A stretch of 44,752 nucleotides of DNA from a virus: IMG/VR virus record IMGVR_UViG_3300046472_000096, positions 1 to 44,752 of that record; one strand, given 5' to 3'. The notes under the pieces were generated by a model, which was given only the letters and a program-made list of their open reading frames with translations, searched no databases and was not told where the DNA came from. The position numbers and the translations under genes were made by a program. Numbering within the stretch: the stretch's first letter is position 1; each line of letters starts with the position of its first letter. Shown in pieces: positions 2,963-26,720 of the stretch.

Positions 2963-3668
2963 CGGAGTTTTGGAGCGTGGGGGTCGGTGCTAACCCGCCC
3001 TTTCCCGACTGGTCGTCGGGCGTGTCGTCGGTATCACTTCCCACGCGCTTTGGGTACGGTCTGCTGAGTGGCTGCAATTGCTTTCGCATGTCATCGTCGA
3101 GGGGCATCAGATAGCGATACTTCCCCGGGAGTTCCACGATTCTACACTCGTCGGGCTTGGGCACCACCCTGTATCGGCCGTATTGCTTTCGAACTCCAGT
3201 CGGTGACACCTGACGATTGTGCAGCATCTTGCCATCGGGTCGCACGTATTGCTTCGTGGGCGCTGACTGTCCGCAGAAGATCCAGTTCGTCGCCTGGTAG
3301 ATTCCGCCGTGATGCCCGTGCGATGGATCCGCAAACGAAATGACGAGACGCATCCCCGGCGACTGCTTCTTCAAAAACGTCAGCGCGATCCTGATGATCT
3401 TCGACACGGGCGTCACGTGCTTCGTCAGGGCGATGCGCGTCAGCTCACAGCCTTCAGTCTGCGCGAGTCGATAGGGGTTCAGCAGACTCGGGCTGGCACC
3501 TCGAGAGAAGATCACAGCGCCGATGAAGTCGCCATTCTCCCAGACGCCGATCATGTTATGCGGGGGTGGTGGGATCGATTTCGAATAATGCCACTGCCGG
3601 CAGGCATACGCTGCAGCTTCGTGGCTGCACCAGTCGAGTCGCAGTGTCGGTTTACTTTGTGAACTCAT
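2952..3668 (-). CDS. Mom-like DNA adenine hypermodification protein
   Basis: 238 aa from ATG 3668; the frame stays open upstream to 3740, which would overlap the previous gene more. The body matches my knowledge of the Mom family of phage Mu, a GNAT-fold protein that turns adenine into N6-(carbamoylmethyl)adenine. Visible signs are QWHYSKSIPPPPHNMIGVWE near the N-terminus, then GAVIFSRGAS, ELTRIALTKHVTPVSK, the SFADPSHGHHGGIYQATNW block, and a Pro/Asp-rich tail. No Com-like translational activator is evident. It is overlapped by a ParB-like gene upstream and the small terminase downstream, so it is made together with the packaging genes, as expected for protection of DNA about to be packaged. 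Family assignment is by eye. Confidence 0.8.
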   Translation of the reverse strand: MSSQSKPTLRLDWCSHEAAAYACRQWHYSKSIPPPPHNMIGVWENGDFIGAVIFSRGASPSLLNPYRLAQTEGCELTRIALTKHVTPVSKIIRIALTFLKKQSPGMRLVISFADPSHGHHGGIYQATNWIFCGQSAPTKQYVRPDGKMLHNRQVSPTGVRKQYGRYRVVPKPDECRIVELPGKYRYLMPLDDDMRKQLQPLSRPYPKRVGSDTDDTPDDQSGKGGLAPTPTLQNSDAQ

Positions 3669-4143
3669 GACCACACTTCGGGCACGTGATGGGGGTCTGC
3701 TGATCGAGACGTCCCTGCGCTTCAGCATCAGCGGGCCCAAACTTTGGGGGCTGGAATGTCATCAGCTCTTCAGGACCAAACCCTGTCAGATCCATGTCGA
3801 ACGCGTCGACGTTCAGTTCTTTCAGCAGCTGCCCGAGCTGCTCTCTGTCCCACGTGCCGCCCTGTTTGTTCAGTGCGATGTTGAGGGCCTTCTCTTCGCG
3901 ATCGCTGAGATCGACAGTCGAGACTTCGACGTCAGTGTCGCCGCGTGCTTCGAGAATCGAAAGTCGCTGATGACCTCCCACCAGGTTGCCTGATCGTTTG
4001 TTCCAGATGATCGGTTCGACCATGCCGAACGTGTCGATCGCTTTCTTCAGTCGTTTGTATTCAGGGTCGGCGGGTTTCAGCAGAACGCGGGGGTTGTACT
4101 TCGCTCGTTTGATGGTGGCGATCGGGATCCGTTCGATGTTCAT
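3652..4143 (-). CDS. ParB/Srx-like nuclease-domain protein
   Basis: 163 aa. The N-terminal ParB-like domain shows YNPRVLL (about 16-22), GMVEPIIWN, and the signature GNLVGGHQRL (about 52-61). A short C-terminal CPKCGHEF resembles half a zinc knuckle. Stand-alone proteins of this type are common beside phage terminases and DNA-modification genes; family members are nucleotide-binding or nicking, but no activity can be assigned here. The ATG has no Shine-Dalgarno sequence and directly follows the T-rich tail of a terminator-like hairpin. Its 3' end overlaps the Mom-like gene by 17 bp, which suggests a joint modification function. Confidence 0.8.
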   Translation of the reverse strand: MNIERIPIATIKRAKYNPRVLLKPADPEYKRLKKAIDTFGMVEPIIWNKRSGNLVGGHQRLSILEARGDTDVEVSTVDLSDREEKALNIALNKQGGTWDREQLGQLLKELNVDAFDMDLTGFGPEELMTFQPPKFGPADAEAQGRLDQQTPITCPKCGHEFTK

Positions 4144-5923: not shown

Positions 5924-6543
5924 GCTGCCCCTCGTCTCTTCTTCTCAGGTTTCACTTTCGGATGCAGAATCGCCTGCACGACGTCGTACTGAAATTTTGG
6001 CAATCCTACCATGCCCCCAGGCCGCGCCATCGCGACGCCGAGCTTCGCAAGACCGAACGCGTCTGCCATGTTGTCGTCGCTGAAGTCGACGTCCCATCGT
6101 TTGAAGCACTCTTTGATCATGATGTTCTTGTCAGCGTGCCCGTCGCCGGTGACGAACTTCTTCAGCTGCGTGGGTGGCACCTCGAGCGGGGTCAAGCCAG
6201 CTTTGCGCAGATGGTATCGAATGATCCCGCCCAGCTCACGCAGCGACGTTCCCCACGCGGTACCGGAATCGAACGAGTAACCCTCGATGGTGACCTGGTG
6301 GCAGTGCATCGCGTATCCCATCACCGCGTTCAGGATCATCTGCCAGCGACCCATGTCGTCGCTGGGTACAGGGCTGATCAGCAGCCCCTGATAGAAATCG
6401 CCGGACGCGAGTCGCTTCTCGATGCGAGGGAAAGCCAGCGCGTGCACCCCGCCGCCGCTGAGCAGCTTCAGCTGCGCGACGTCCTCGACGATCATCGCAA
6501 GGCCCGTGCCGTTGATCGACAGATCGATGCCCAGAACGTTCAT
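5920..6543 (-). CDS. RuvC-like Holliday junction resolvase
   Basis: 207 aa, the length expected for phage RuvC-type resolvases. The RNase H-fold acid residues are visible: D7 in LGIDLSINGTG, E87 in VTIEGYSF, and the pair in DDNMADAFGLAKLG (about 155-168). It cuts four-way junctions and branches so the genome can be packaged. It sits in the leftward operon after replication genes and is coupled by ATGA to the upstream small gene. With the nuclease and ATPase genes on the plus strand it suggests recombination-dependent replication or processing. Confidence 0.85.
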   Translation of the reverse strand: MNVLGIDLSINGTGLAMIVEDVAQLKLLSGGGVHALAFPRIEKRLASGDFYQGLLISPVPSDDMGRWQMILNAVMGYAMHCHQVTIEGYSFDSGTAWGTSLRELGGIIRYHLRKAGLTPLEVPPTQLKKFVTGDGHADKNIMIKECFKRWDVDFSDDNMADAFGLAKLGVAMARPGGMVGLPKFQYDVVQAILHPKVKPEKKRRGAA

Positions 6544-6761: not shown

Positions 6762-7030
6762 GACACCTGCCCTGCTGCAGGTCCGCGCATCGCGTCGACG
6801 ATCGCGATCTCACGTCGCAGCTTGGCGTTCGATTCAACCAGCTGCTGATGATTTCGTTCAGCTTCGCACAGATACGTTTCAGCCAGGCGCCCGTGCACGC
6901 GGTAGAGCATCAGCACAGCGTCGTGTTCGAGGTTCGCTTCGAGAATGAGGGCAGCGACCAGCTTCGTCGCGTCATAAAGCGCGTCGACCAGATCGTCACC
7001 TGAGGGGTGCAGTTGGCTGTAGATCTTCAT
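6758..7030 (-). CDS. Small helical hypothetical protein
   Basis: 90 aa from ATG 7030, which has AAAGGAC about 9 nt upstream; the longer in-frame start (7168) would run over the neighbouring gene. Almost entirely helical: DALYDATKLVAALILEANLE, then a coiled-coil-like QQLVESNAKLRREIAIVDAM. It overlaps its neighbours by 4 bp on each side. No family recognised. Confidence 0.6.
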   Translation of the reverse strand: MKIYSQLHPSGDDLVDALYDATKLVAALILEANLEHDAVLMLYRVHGRLAETYLCEAERNHQQLVESNAKLRREIAIVDAMRGPAAGQVS

Positions 7031-7278
7031 CGGAGTCTGTCCTTTCGTTGCATGAGTTCGCCGCGGCGGGTGAGTTCGTAGAGTTTCAGGGTGCGTGCGC
7101 ACTTGCCGCCCTGACGGTTCGCGACTTTCGCGAGAGACGTCGCCTGCCCAGTGTGGGTGAGGATCCACATTCCGATCTGAACTTTGCGGGGTTCGATCTT
7201 CAGTTCTTCAGCCAGCTCCCTGACAGTGCCAGGTCCTTCGCTCAGAGCTTTGCGGAGCTTCTTCGAGATCCCCGTCAC
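7027..7278 (-). CDS. Small winged-helix DNA-binding protein
   Basis: 83 aa. The pattern KALSEGPGTVRELAEELKIE, then KVQIGMWILTHTGQ and a basic wing ending in KLYELTRRGE, is that of a winged helix-turn-helix like those of Rrf2- or MarR-type folds. It is translationally coupled to the initiator upstream (4-bp overlap) and probably modulates replication or leftward transcription. Function inferred from fold signs only. Confidence 0.65.
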   Translation of the reverse strand: MTGISKKLRKALSEGPGTVRELAEELKIEPRKVQIGMWILTHTGQATSLAKVANRQGGKCARTLKLYELTRRGELMQRKDRLR

Positions 7279-8051
7279 TTTTTCGCACTCTCTGTTCTCA
7301 GTGAAAAAACTTCACCAGCAACGAATCTGAGGGGCGAATCGTGGGCGAGTTTCAAAGCAGAACGCATAAGTCCCACGTGTTCAGGTTCAGACCACCAGTC
7401 GACGAAGTACTGATTCGGCGTTCGAATCTCCCACGGGTTCCGTCTGAGGGGGTGAATGGGAAGGAACCAAGTCAGGAACGTCTGCTTCTGCAGGGTGCCT
7501 TCCAGCTCGATTCTGACCTGTTCCCAGATGCGATCGAGTTCAGCTGCTTCGAGAGCGATGTCGTGATAATCGTCAAAGGAAAAAAGGGCAGAAGTCTCAG
7601 CCGGGGGTAGGTTCTTCCCATTGGGTTCTGAAGGGTTAATGGAGCATGTGACACTGTGACCTGTGGAAATCGCTGACTTGTCACTTGGACAGGTGACACC
7701 CTGACACATGGGGGCAGGTGACTCTGTGTCACATGGACCGTGTGACTTTGTGGCACTTGGTGGCACCAGATGCAGGATGTAAATGTTCTGCTCGAATCGC
7801 CCTTGGGTTGCTGGCTCTCGACGGGTTGAAATCAGACCCAGATCGACGAGCAGTTTGAGGGATCGAATGACGGTTCGTCTGTTCAGGCTGGTGATCTCTG
7901 AAAGGGTCGACTGCATCGGCCAGCATTCTTCCTGGCCTTCTGGGGTTCCGCGCGGGTGGCTGGCGTAGTTGGCGAGTGCGATCAGGGTCAATTTCGCTGA
8001 CGGGTTTTCGATGTAGGTGCTGAATGCCCAGTTGAGGGCTTTGATACTCAA
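7275..8051 (-). CDS. Replication initiator: HTH plus DnaA domain-I-like protein
   Basis: 258 aa from TTG 8051, chosen because AGAGGA lies 6 nt before it and the product then begins LSIKALNWAF; the frame stays open to 8105. Residues about 5-90 are a helix-turn-helix of the phage replication-protein type (LIALANYAS, STLSEITSLNRRTVIRSLKLLVDLGLI). Residues about 95-165 are a Cys/Ser/Thr-rich linker encoded by repeat DNA. Residues about 173-248 match DnaA domain I: WEQVRIELEG, FLTWFLPI, TPNQYFVDWW, PLRFVAGE. DnaA domain I contacts DnaB helicase and DiaA/HU in bacteria, so this protein may bind its own origin and recruit the host helicase. No phage helicase or primase is encoded. Confidence 0.75.
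   Translation of the reverse strand: MSIKALNWAFSTYIENPSAKLTLIALANYASHPRGTPEGQEECWPMQSTLSEITSLNRRTVIRSLKLLVDLGLISTRREPATQGRFEQNIYILHLVPPSATKSHGPCDTESPAPMCQGVTCPSDKSAISTGHSVTCSINPSEPNGKNLPPAETSALFSFDDYHDIALEAAELDRIWEQVRIELEGTLQKQTFLTWFLPIHPLRRNPWEIRTPNQYFVDWWSEPEHVGLMRSALKLAHDSPLRFVAGEVFSLRTESAKK
7648..7746. repeat. Iteron-like GTGAC/GTCAC cluster, candidate replication origin
   Basis: Within 99 bp, GTGAC starts at 7648, 7656, 7693, 7718 and 7742, and its complement GTCAC at 7680 and 7728. The last three direct copies are spaced 25 and 24 bp. Two inverted pairs are visible: GTGAC-N5-GTCAC (7718-7732) and TGTCAC-N8-GTGACA (7679-7698). The cluster falls in the linker between the two domains of the initiator, the position of the lambda origin inside gene O. 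Chance would give well under one copy. Origin function is inferred. Confidence 0.55.
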
Positions 8052-8098
8052 TGCTGATCCTCTCCCCGTGCTGATCCAGATTTCAAAAGGGGTGCTGG

Positions 8099-8149
8099 CG
8101 GGCACATGCCCGGATCAGCGGTGAGCTTCTATCGAGGGGCGACCTCGAT
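8099..8149. other. Two hairpins in the leader of the initiator gene
   Basis: The stretch 8052-8301 lacks a convincing gene. It holds CGGGC-ACAT-GCCCG (8099-8112) and ATCGAGG-GGCGA-CCTCGAT (8131-8149). They lie upstream of the TTG start at 8051 and downstream of the gene ending at 8302. They may be a terminator for that gene or a leader structure controlling the initiator. No clear T tract follows either one. Confidence 0.4.
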
Positions 8150-14696: not shown

Positions 14697-16421
14697 ATGA
14701 CGACGACCACTCAACCACGCATTGACAGCGGCAAATACTTCCCCGCGATTCTGCTGACGCAGATCGAACCATCGAAGACGAACCCCCGGAAACATTTCGA
14801 TAAGGGCGAGATCGAAGAACTGGCAAAGAGCATCATCGAAAAGGGCGTGCTGCAGCCGATTGTTCTGCGTCCGCATCCGAAAGCGACAAAGACAGTCCTG
14901 TTCGAGATCGTCGCTGGTGAGAAACGATATCGCGCCACAGCCAGCGCTGCGATCGCGACGATCCCGGCGATGGTGCGCGACCTGGACGACAAAGCTGTCC
15001 TCGAGATTCAGCTGATCGAGAACCTGCAGCGCAGTGATGTGCACGAACTCGAAGAAGCGCACGGGTACCGGCGACTGATCAAAGAAGCGAAATATGACGT
15101 CGCGACGCTGGCGAATCGCGTCGGCAAGTCTGACGAATACATCTACGCGAGAATGAAGCTGCTGGCACTCGACAAGGACCTGCAGGATATGTTTCTGAAG
15201 AACGAGATCACTGCAGGGCACGCTGTTCTGTTAGCCAGGTTGCCGAAAGAAAGCCAGATGATGGCAGCGAAGCAGCTCTACCAGAGCAAGTGGAACGACG
15301 TCGCCGGCACGCAGACAAAAGACCTAATCAGCGTGCGCGATCTCGGGTACTTCATTCAGCGACAGATCCAGATGGATCTGGGCAAAGCTCCCTTCGATAT
15401 CAGTGATGAAAAACTGGTGAAGGCCGCTGGTGCATGTGGCGACTGTCCCAAACGAACGGGCGCGTCGACGCAATTGTTCCCTGAAGTCAAAGGGCACGAC
15501 CTCTGTCTCGATCGCGCTTGCTACGCGAAGAAGCTGGCAGCGTTCGTCGAGCAGCAGGTACAGGAAAACGGCGCCGTACGCATCACCGATAAGTATCAGT
15601 CGACACCAGTCAAAGGGCTCTACTACACCGGTTACACCAGTGAGGTGAAGAAAGGCAGCTGCGTCAATACTGTCGACGGGATCCACGTCGACGGGCATCT
15701 GATGGGGAAGGTCATTCTCGTCTGCGTGACGGAGGGCTGCAAAGTTCATGGGCGACGTCAGGGAGGCATGTCGGGATCCCAGCGATCGCTGTCGACACCG
15801 AAAGAGCGCTTTGAAACGACGAAGCGCAACATCGACGAGAAAGTTCGTGACGAGGTGCGCGACAAGATCTATAAGGCAGCGATCGAACGAATCGAACTGC
15901 TGGGCTCTGATCTGCCCAAGCTGACGAAGAGGGCAGCGCTGACGATGATCCTGCGCATGGTCTACAACCGCGCCGACTCGACTGCCAGAGCTGCTCTGAC
16001 TGAAGAGCTGAAGCTGCCCAAGGCGCAATACTCGAAAGGCGCTGACGTGGCCACTGTGCTGAAATACGCGACGAAGCTCGACCTGCCCCGGCTGCAGGGT
16101 TTCATCATTCGCGTGGGTCTGCGCGATCTGTCGCTGGGTTTCAGCGGGTCATGGTCGAGCGGTAAGAACTCCGTCGACGAAGAGCTGAAGACGATCGCGA
16201 CAGAGTACGGCGCGAAAGTCTCTGCGCTGATGGCTGAAGCGACGACGCTGAAAGCAGAGAAGCTCAACAAGGCCAAGGCGCGACTGGCTGCAGCGATCGA
16301 GAAAGGCAAACCCAAACCGAAGAAGACCGGCAAACCTGAACCAGTGAAGACGGGCAAACCATCGCAGACGTCTACAAAGCAGAAGCCACCCGTCGACACT
16401 GACGAAGAGGAGGATGACTAA
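14697..16421 (+). CDS. Large ParB/RepB/Spo0J-family protein without ParA
   Basis: 574 aa. The ParB N domain (about 15-105) shows NPRKHF, LQPIVLRP, IVAGEKRYRATA and ENLQRSDVHELEEA. A central HTH (about 110-200) has VATLANRVGKSDEYIYARMKLL and ITAGHAVLLARL. Next is a Cys segment (ACGDCPKRTGAS and DLCLDRACYAKKL, about 243-283), then a long helical C-terminus ending in Lys/Pro-rich repeats (KPKPKKTGKPEPVKTGKP) and an acidic tip. In partition systems ParB is a CTPase clamp loaded at parS. Here no ParA gene is visible, so it may regulate transcription or nucleoid structure. The Cys insert is also seen in phage and plasmid relatives. Confidence 0.85.
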   Translation: MTTTTQPRIDSGKYFPAILLTQIEPSKTNPRKHFDKGEIEELAKSIIEKGVLQPIVLRPHPKATKTVLFEIVAGEKRYRATASAAIATIPAMVRDLDDKAVLEIQLIENLQRSDVHELEEAHGYRRLIKEAKYDVATLANRVGKSDEYIYARMKLLALDKDLQDMFLKNEITAGHAVLLARLPKESQMMAAKQLYQSKWNDVAGTQTKDLISVRDLGYFIQRQIQMDLGKAPFDISDEKLVKAAGACGDCPKRTGASTQLFPEVKGHDLCLDRACYAKKLAAFVEQQVQENGAVRITDKYQSTPVKGLYYTGYTSEVKKGSCVNTVDGIHVDGHLMGKVILVCVTEGCKVHGRRQGGMSGSQRSLSTPKERFETTKRNIDEKVRDEVRDKIYKAAIERIELLGSDLPKLTKRAALTMILRMVYNRADSTARAALTEELKLPKAQYSKGADVATVLKYATKLDLPRLQGFIIRVGLRDLSLGFSGSWSSGKNSVDEELKTIATEYGAKVSALMAEATTLKAEKLNKAKARLAAAIEKGKPKPKKTGKPEPVKTGKPSQTSTKQKPPVDTDEEEDD

Positions 16422-26647: not shown

Positions 26648-26720
26648 TTGCGCGGGTGGGATTCGAACCCACGGCCTATCGGTTATGAGCCGATCGAGCT
26701 GACCACTGCTCCACCGCGCG
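26648..26720 (-). tRNA. Initiator-like tRNA-fMet (CAT)
   Basis: 73 nt, full cloverleaf: acceptor CGCGCGG/CCGCGCA, D arm GAGC-AGTGGTCA-GCTC, anticodon arm ATCGG-CTCATAA-CCGAT with CAT, T arm GTGGG-TTCGAAT-CCCAC. Position 1 C faces A72 (unpaired), and the D stem has A11:U24. Both are hallmarks of bacterial initiator tRNA. Two of the three anticodon-stem G:C pairs are in the usual orientation (29 is C:G). A73 follows and CCA is not encoded. It sits inside the tail operon. Confidence 0.92.

Follow-up and report, generated by a model that had tools for sequence, protein, structure and literature searches.

An iteron array within an O-like initiator gene as the most likely replication origin of an uncultured phage

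The subject of this analysis is IMG/VR record IMGVR_UViG_3300046472_000096 from an uncultured virus, which at its full length of 44,752 nucleotides is referred to as the window. As the ends of the record share a terminal direct repeat of 127 bp, it most likely represents a complete circular phage genome of 44,625 bp. Within the replication initiator gene of this phage (7275-8051, minus strand) we found an array of palindromic repeats at 7642-7760, which most likely represents its iteron replication origin. We base this assignment on homologous initiators, as these keep repeats at the same place. This is the case for the related loci L019 and L035, and for 71 of the 81 initiators in a family survey.

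The repeat array and its units

An earlier note, made from the sequence without database searches, had reported seven copies of GTGAC or GTCAC in 99 bp, several of them 24-25 bp apart, in the linker between a helix-turn-helix (HTH) domain and a domain resembling DnaA domain I. This proved to be correct. The seven copies are found at 7648, 7656, 7680 (minus strand), 7693, 7718, 7728 (minus strand) and 7742, all within 7648-7746. The pentamer is, however, merely the core of a longer unit, an imperfect palindrome of 20-25 bp which reads roughly CCAtGTGaCAcaGtGTCACcTG.

The array consists of four such units on the minus strand, spaced by 24, 25 and 45 bp, with a half unit near the 45-bp gap. Three of them were used to build a matrix: iteron 1 (CCAAGTGCCACAAAGTCACACGGTC, 7736-7760, 26.9 bits), iteron 2 (CCATGTGACACAGAGTCACCTGCCC, 7712-7736, 30.1 bits), which lies 24 bp from iteron 1 and contains the imperfect palindrome GTGACaCagaGTCAC, and iteron 3 (CCATGTGTCAGGGTGTCACCTGTCC, 7687-7711, 27.9 bits), which lies 25 bp from iteron 2. 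Iteron 4 (CCACAGGTCACAGTGTCACATGCTC, 7642-7666) had been held out and was recovered by the three-unit matrix with 20.4 bits. Outside the array, no site in the 44.7-kb record scored above 12.1 bits. Between iterons 3 and 4, which are 45 bp apart, a half-iteron (7680-7690, minus strand, with its GTGAC core at 7680-7684) is located near the position of the missing unit. As the units have diverged, Tandem Repeats Finder missed the array except for one 10-mer in two copies.

In the protein, the array corresponds to codons 98-137 of 258. It is thus positioned between the winged helix (residues 1-97) and the DnaA_N match (residues 174-219), and more than 285 bp into the coding region.

Repeats at the DNA level

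The repeats of the window are DNA repeats, not protein repeats. We kept the protein sequence of the linker and resampled its codons from the phage's own usage. In 5000 such synonymous shuffles, 2.3 copies of GTGAC/GTCAC were expected and the maximum was 6, compared to the 7 that are observed. The difference is larger for self-matches of 14-mers, of which the linker has 45 (3.0 expected, with a maximum of 20 in 1000 shuffles). In addition, the pentamer copies occupy all three reading frames.

The clustering of the pentamer, which the earlier note had suggested to check, is not matched elsewhere in the window. The densest other 100 bp contain 4 copies, and a maximum of 5 per 100 bp was obtained in 200 genomes simulated with an order-2 Markov model.

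The linker itself has the odd composition that the note had attributed to the DNA repeats. Cys, Ser, Thr, His and Pro make up 51% of its residues (20% genome-wide) and Cys alone 6% (0.9% genome-wide). All four Cys codons of the linker, as read by eye, fall within the repeat array, which is in keeping with the DNA dictating the linker sequence.

Repeats in related initiators

Relatives were found through TerL, RuvC and an HTH alignment; the initiator alone gave one partial match. L019 is syntenic with the window phage (TerL 67% identical, RuvC 50%). Its initiator, which has an HTH_36 domain, carries a 23-bp iteron (GGGACACnGnGTCACCAC) in seven copies at the corresponding place in the linker. 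The iteron core is common to both phages, while the linker protein sequence and the C-terminus differ. The initiator of L035 has a different iteron, with repeats of GGTAGTTGCACCACGC, again at the same place.

For a systematic survey, O-like initiators with an HTH_36 domain were gathered by their N-terminus from phages, plasmids, prophages and viral contigs, and 81 with less than about 70% identity were kept. A repeat was counted when a direct 14-mer with at most 3 mismatches recurred at a distance of 20-26 bp within codons 75-145. Such repeats are present in 71 of the 81 genes, compared to 5.2 in shuffles. The histogram of repeat distances peaks at 22-23 bp (34 and 39 genes versus about 3) and, as a harmonic, at 45, and the positions concentrate in codons 81-140. 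As the distances show no modulo-3 preference, the family repeats also are DNA repeats. GTGACA/TGTCAC cores occur in about a quarter of the surveyed initiators, and in the survey the density of this hexamer in the linker is 36 times that found in the remainder of the gene. Thus, the repeats persist at their place in 71 of 81 genes while the linker sequence changes, which the earlier note had suggested to check by an alignment of homologues.

Among the homologues without a repeat, L001 and L136 have open reading frames (ORFs) that cover the N-terminus only. The HTH-only initiator ORF of L001 (6010-6279) codes for 89 residues, and repeats of the GGGGTGACAG type are found in non-coding sequence downstream of its stop codon (6410-6485) and before a helicase gene. 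It seems that in this case the array stayed in place after linker and C-terminus had been lost or split off. Four further HTH_36 proteins of 120-150 residues (L066, L067, L070 and L093) have no C-terminal domain, as they stop inside the linker that bears the repeats or shortly behind it.

In L019 (4841-5497) and L035 (4967-5563), an ORF of about 200 codons overlaps the 3′ end of the initiator gene. It is missing in the window and has the position that gene P has in lambda. As candidates for a lambda P-like loader these ORFs showed no match to a loader family, and they were not used further.

The initiator protein

The initiator gene shows Pfam matches to HTH_36 and DnaA_N and is assigned by PHROG to 'replication initiation / O-like'. 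Its ORF is listed as 7275-8105 (276 residues, minus strand), beginning upstream at a GTG at 8105. As homologous initiators start with MSIKALNWAF, the start codon is probably the TTG at 8051, which gives a protein of 258 residues. A Shine-Dalgarno-like sequence (GGGGAGAGG, 8059-8067, read by eye) is found 7 nt before this TTG. No second copy of the initiator was found in the record.

The N-terminus matches HTH_36 (PF13730) with E 5e-11 and 42.6 bits (Pfam cut-off 25) and, in PHROG, the replication-initiation families phrog_1032 (E 9e-18) and phrog_270 (E 3e-14). An AlphaFold2 model was built with 36 relatives in the alignment. It shows the topology of a winged helix-turn-helix (wHTH) for residues 1-97 (7761-8051, minus strand), with a predicted local distance difference test (pLDDT) score of 83-98. 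A Foldseek search with this domain, which is the presumed iteron-binding domain, returned winged-helix proteins, the best at E 1.4e-3. Residues 98-158 (7578-7760, minus strand) form the linker of biased composition that carries the array, and are predicted to be disordered (pLDDT mostly about 50). AAA+ and DnaA-box domains are absent from the protein according to the Pfam scan.

Directly after the initiator gene, with its start overlapping the initiator stop, a gene at 7027-7278 (minus strand) codes for a small wHTH-like protein of 83 residues, possibly a partner or regulator of the initiator. A tRNA-Met (CAT) gene is located at 26648-26720 (minus strand) between structural genes.

A C-terminal module resembling DnaA domain I

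The C-terminal module (residues 174-219; 7395-7532, minus strand) was recognised by its similarity to PF11638 (DnaA_N; E 5e-5, 23.4 bits). DnaA alone was found among the PDB chains matched by this module at E<0.05. When the module was combined with its homologue from L156 into a profile, domain I of E. coli DnaA was matched at E 8e-5. In E. coli, this domain contacts DnaB via Glu21 and Phe46 (PMC5448010). At the Phe46 position, the module of the window has Tyr, while most other DnaA_N modules of initiators have Phe. Folding of the C-terminus as a single sequence gave an all-helical model of low confidence which lacks the beta strands of domain I, and this model was not used.

In a Pfam scan of 41 O-like initiators with HTH_36, DnaA_N was detected in the window protein only, while the others have DnaT-like or other C-termini. 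Among known phages and viral contigs, no close DnaA_N relative was convincing either. We then consider 143 gammaproteobacterial and 115 alphaproteobacterial genomes, which were searched for DnaA_N. Besides DnaA itself, these code for at least eight initiator-like proteins that carry DnaA_N at the C-terminus; in seven of these, the match exceeds the Pfam cut-off. Their N-termini are quite different from each other, and several carry iterons in the linker. L156 (1488-2807, minus strand) has a RepO-like wHTH, a DnaA_N match below the cut-off, and 23-bp linker iterons at a perfect spacing of 23 bp; its N-terminus has matches among phage and plasmid proteins that are annotated as replication protein O. 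L160 and L161 also combine a RepO-like wHTH with a C-terminal DnaA_N, and have repeats at 23 and 24 bp. In other proteins, the C-terminal DnaA_N is attached to Phage_rep_org_N (L159), to a DUF1376 plus DnaT-like N-terminus (L164), to an RP-C-like wHTH (L165), or to Rep_3 (L162 by Pfam, L163 by similarity), the latter two without linker iterons. As other initiators carry a DnaA_N module at their C-terminus, the architecture makes the weak match of the window protein credible.

Proposed mechanism

We propose that the initiator, probably in dimeric form, binds with its winged helix to the four palindromic iterons (GTGACA/TGTCAC), and that the bound initiator would bend and open nearby DNA. Tethered by the linker, the module resembling DnaA domain I would recruit host DnaB, either directly or with a host loader. 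It would thus stand in for the pair formed by the C-terminus of lambda O and the P protein. Families of lambda P (PF06992), DnaC/IstB, DnaB (DnaB_C) and DciA are not recognisable in the complete record, and from this lack of a phage helicase or loader we infer direct recruitment of host DnaB. Judged from sequence and domain content, we consider this explanation as a whole highly probable.

Several observations weigh against it. The turn of the cumulative GC skew, which the earlier note had expected, is absent at 7.6 kb (the minimum is near 2.1 kb, the maximum near 20 kb). No conspicuous AT-rich stretch adjoins the array: the local AT maximum (62% in 40 bp) is found at 7275, about 330 bp away, and the genome maximum is 72%. 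As certain commoner pentamers reach 7-8 copies per 100 bp somewhere by chance, the pentamer count by itself is less telling than it seems. By the criterion applied, roughly one homologue in eight lacks a repeat, and in a strict test per gene just 37 of the 81 initiators exceed every shuffle, so that the family evidence is strong in aggregate but not gene by gene. With respect to the C-terminus, the DnaA_N match is just under the Pfam cut-off of 24.6 bits, and the position of Glu21 is occupied by Thr. The AlphaFold2 model is of low confidence in this region and the domain I fold is not confirmed by it, because the alignment holds no relatives of the C-terminal part. Finally, the open-licence literature yielded no experiment on any member of this architecture.

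More generally, DnaA domain I may be a portable module for helicase recruitment, which in phages and plasmids has been added repeatedly to the C-terminal end of initiators that are unrelated to each other (HTH_36, RepO-type wHTH, Phage_rep_org_N, Rep_3, DUF1376/DnaT-like and RP-C-like). In phages of this type it could replace both the O C-terminus and the P loader, resulting in a one-protein, loader-free origin with iterons inside the gene. We put this generalisation forward tentatively, and lean slightly towards doubting it. The domain by which the chromosomal initiator DnaA recruits the helicase has recurrently been fused to initiators of mobile elements. If the module does bind DnaB, the stand-alone role of DnaA domain I in helicase loading becomes testable in a small system. 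The family survey also provides a search rule for origins in uncultured phages, namely repeats at 22-23 bp around codons 80-140 of O-like initiator genes with HTH_36.

Alternative explanations

Plasmid iterons serve control as well as initiation. The repeats might thus be initiator sites for autoregulation or copy control, with the strand-opening origin elsewhere, and the lack of an AT-rich element or skew turn beside the array would fit. We regard this as rather improbable: an array more than 285 bp inside a coding region is poorly located for an operator, and arrays with the same placement occur in 71 of 81 relatives and in lambda, whose origin is formed by them (PMC5043065). A partition site (centromere) is another arrangement with clustered inverted repeats, and two proteins of the ParB_N type are encoded in the window. 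One is short and located near the terminase region (3652-4143, minus strand); the other (14697-16421, plus strand) has 574 residues with a ParB HTH, and its centromere could be formed by the repeats. However, in dozens of phages and prophages the iterons are located where the initiator linker is encoded, and a different initiator comes with a different iteron sequence (L035 compared to L019). Phage proteins with ParB_N/HTH domains often have no role in partition. We give the centromere very little credence.

Still less can be said for an accidental origin of the repeats, with GTGAC arising by coincidence from the codons of a low-complexity Ser/Thr/Pro/Cys linker, an explanation that we practically dismiss. 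Linkers drift freely, and the density reached by other pentamers has been mentioned. But chance is refuted by the shuffles that preserve the protein, which never reached the observed repetition, and by a family-wide placement far above expectation, and it is also opposed by the copies in all three frames and by the recovery of the held-out unit. The strongest of the alternatives accepts the iterons as the origin but takes the C-terminus for an unrelated helical domain, with the helicase being recruited otherwise. The Pfam score below the cut-off and the all-helical, low-confidence fold are in its favour. Against it, both PDB searches as well as Pfam point to DnaA domain I, and unrelated initiators bear clear DnaA_N modules at their C-terminus. 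We consider this explanation unlikely, and prefer a DnaA domain I-like module acting at an in-gene iteron origin.

Comparison with lambda and other known systems

Origin iterons inside the initiator gene are a known principle of lambda, where the iterons in gene O serve as binding sites for O dimers and constitute the origin (PMC5043065). As a control, the script that was applied to the family recovered the annotated lambda iterons, which are spaced by 20, 24 and 23 bp at about codons 117-144. DnaA domain I at the C-terminus of such phage initiators was not found described in the open-licence literature.

The earlier note had likened the array to the lambda plan, and placement and homologues support this comparison, with the function as origin being probable. 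In both systems, iterons of about 20 bp occur at a spacing of 20-24 bp in the part of the initiator gene that codes for the linker behind the N-terminal DNA-binding domain. They differ in the iteron sequence, in the DnaA domain I-like C-terminus, in the lack of a P gene and in the lack of an AT-rich stretch beside the iterons of the window. The note had also called the initiator one of a different kind. This does not hold for the N-terminal wHTH, as both this domain and lambda O match PHROGs 678, 345 and 391. The protein thus belongs to the O-like assemblage, yet it is not a Phage_rep_O member: PF04492 is found in lambda O (E 6e-36) while the window protein has HTH_36 instead, and a profile-profile comparison (hhalign) of the HTH_36 set with lambda O gave no match. 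The two are linked only indirectly, via PHROGs 678 and 345. The note's claim of a different kind does hold for the unusual C-terminus.

With the HTH_36 proteins of the 'replication initiation / O-like' type (phrog_1032, 270, 8540 and 391), the window protein shares the N-terminal domain and iterons at the same codons, but differs from them by its DnaA_N C-terminus. Iteron plasmids (Rep_3 and similar) are comparable in having an origin with arrayed repeats that bind the initiator, although the window initiator has no Rep_3 domain. Compared to DnaA itself, the module shows a weak but consistent similarity to domain I, with the Trp6 position kept, Tyr replacing Phe46 and Thr at Glu21. The AAA+ domain III and the DnaA-box-binding domain IV have no counterpart in the window initiator, and the domain I-like module, which is N-terminal in DnaA, is located at the C-terminus.
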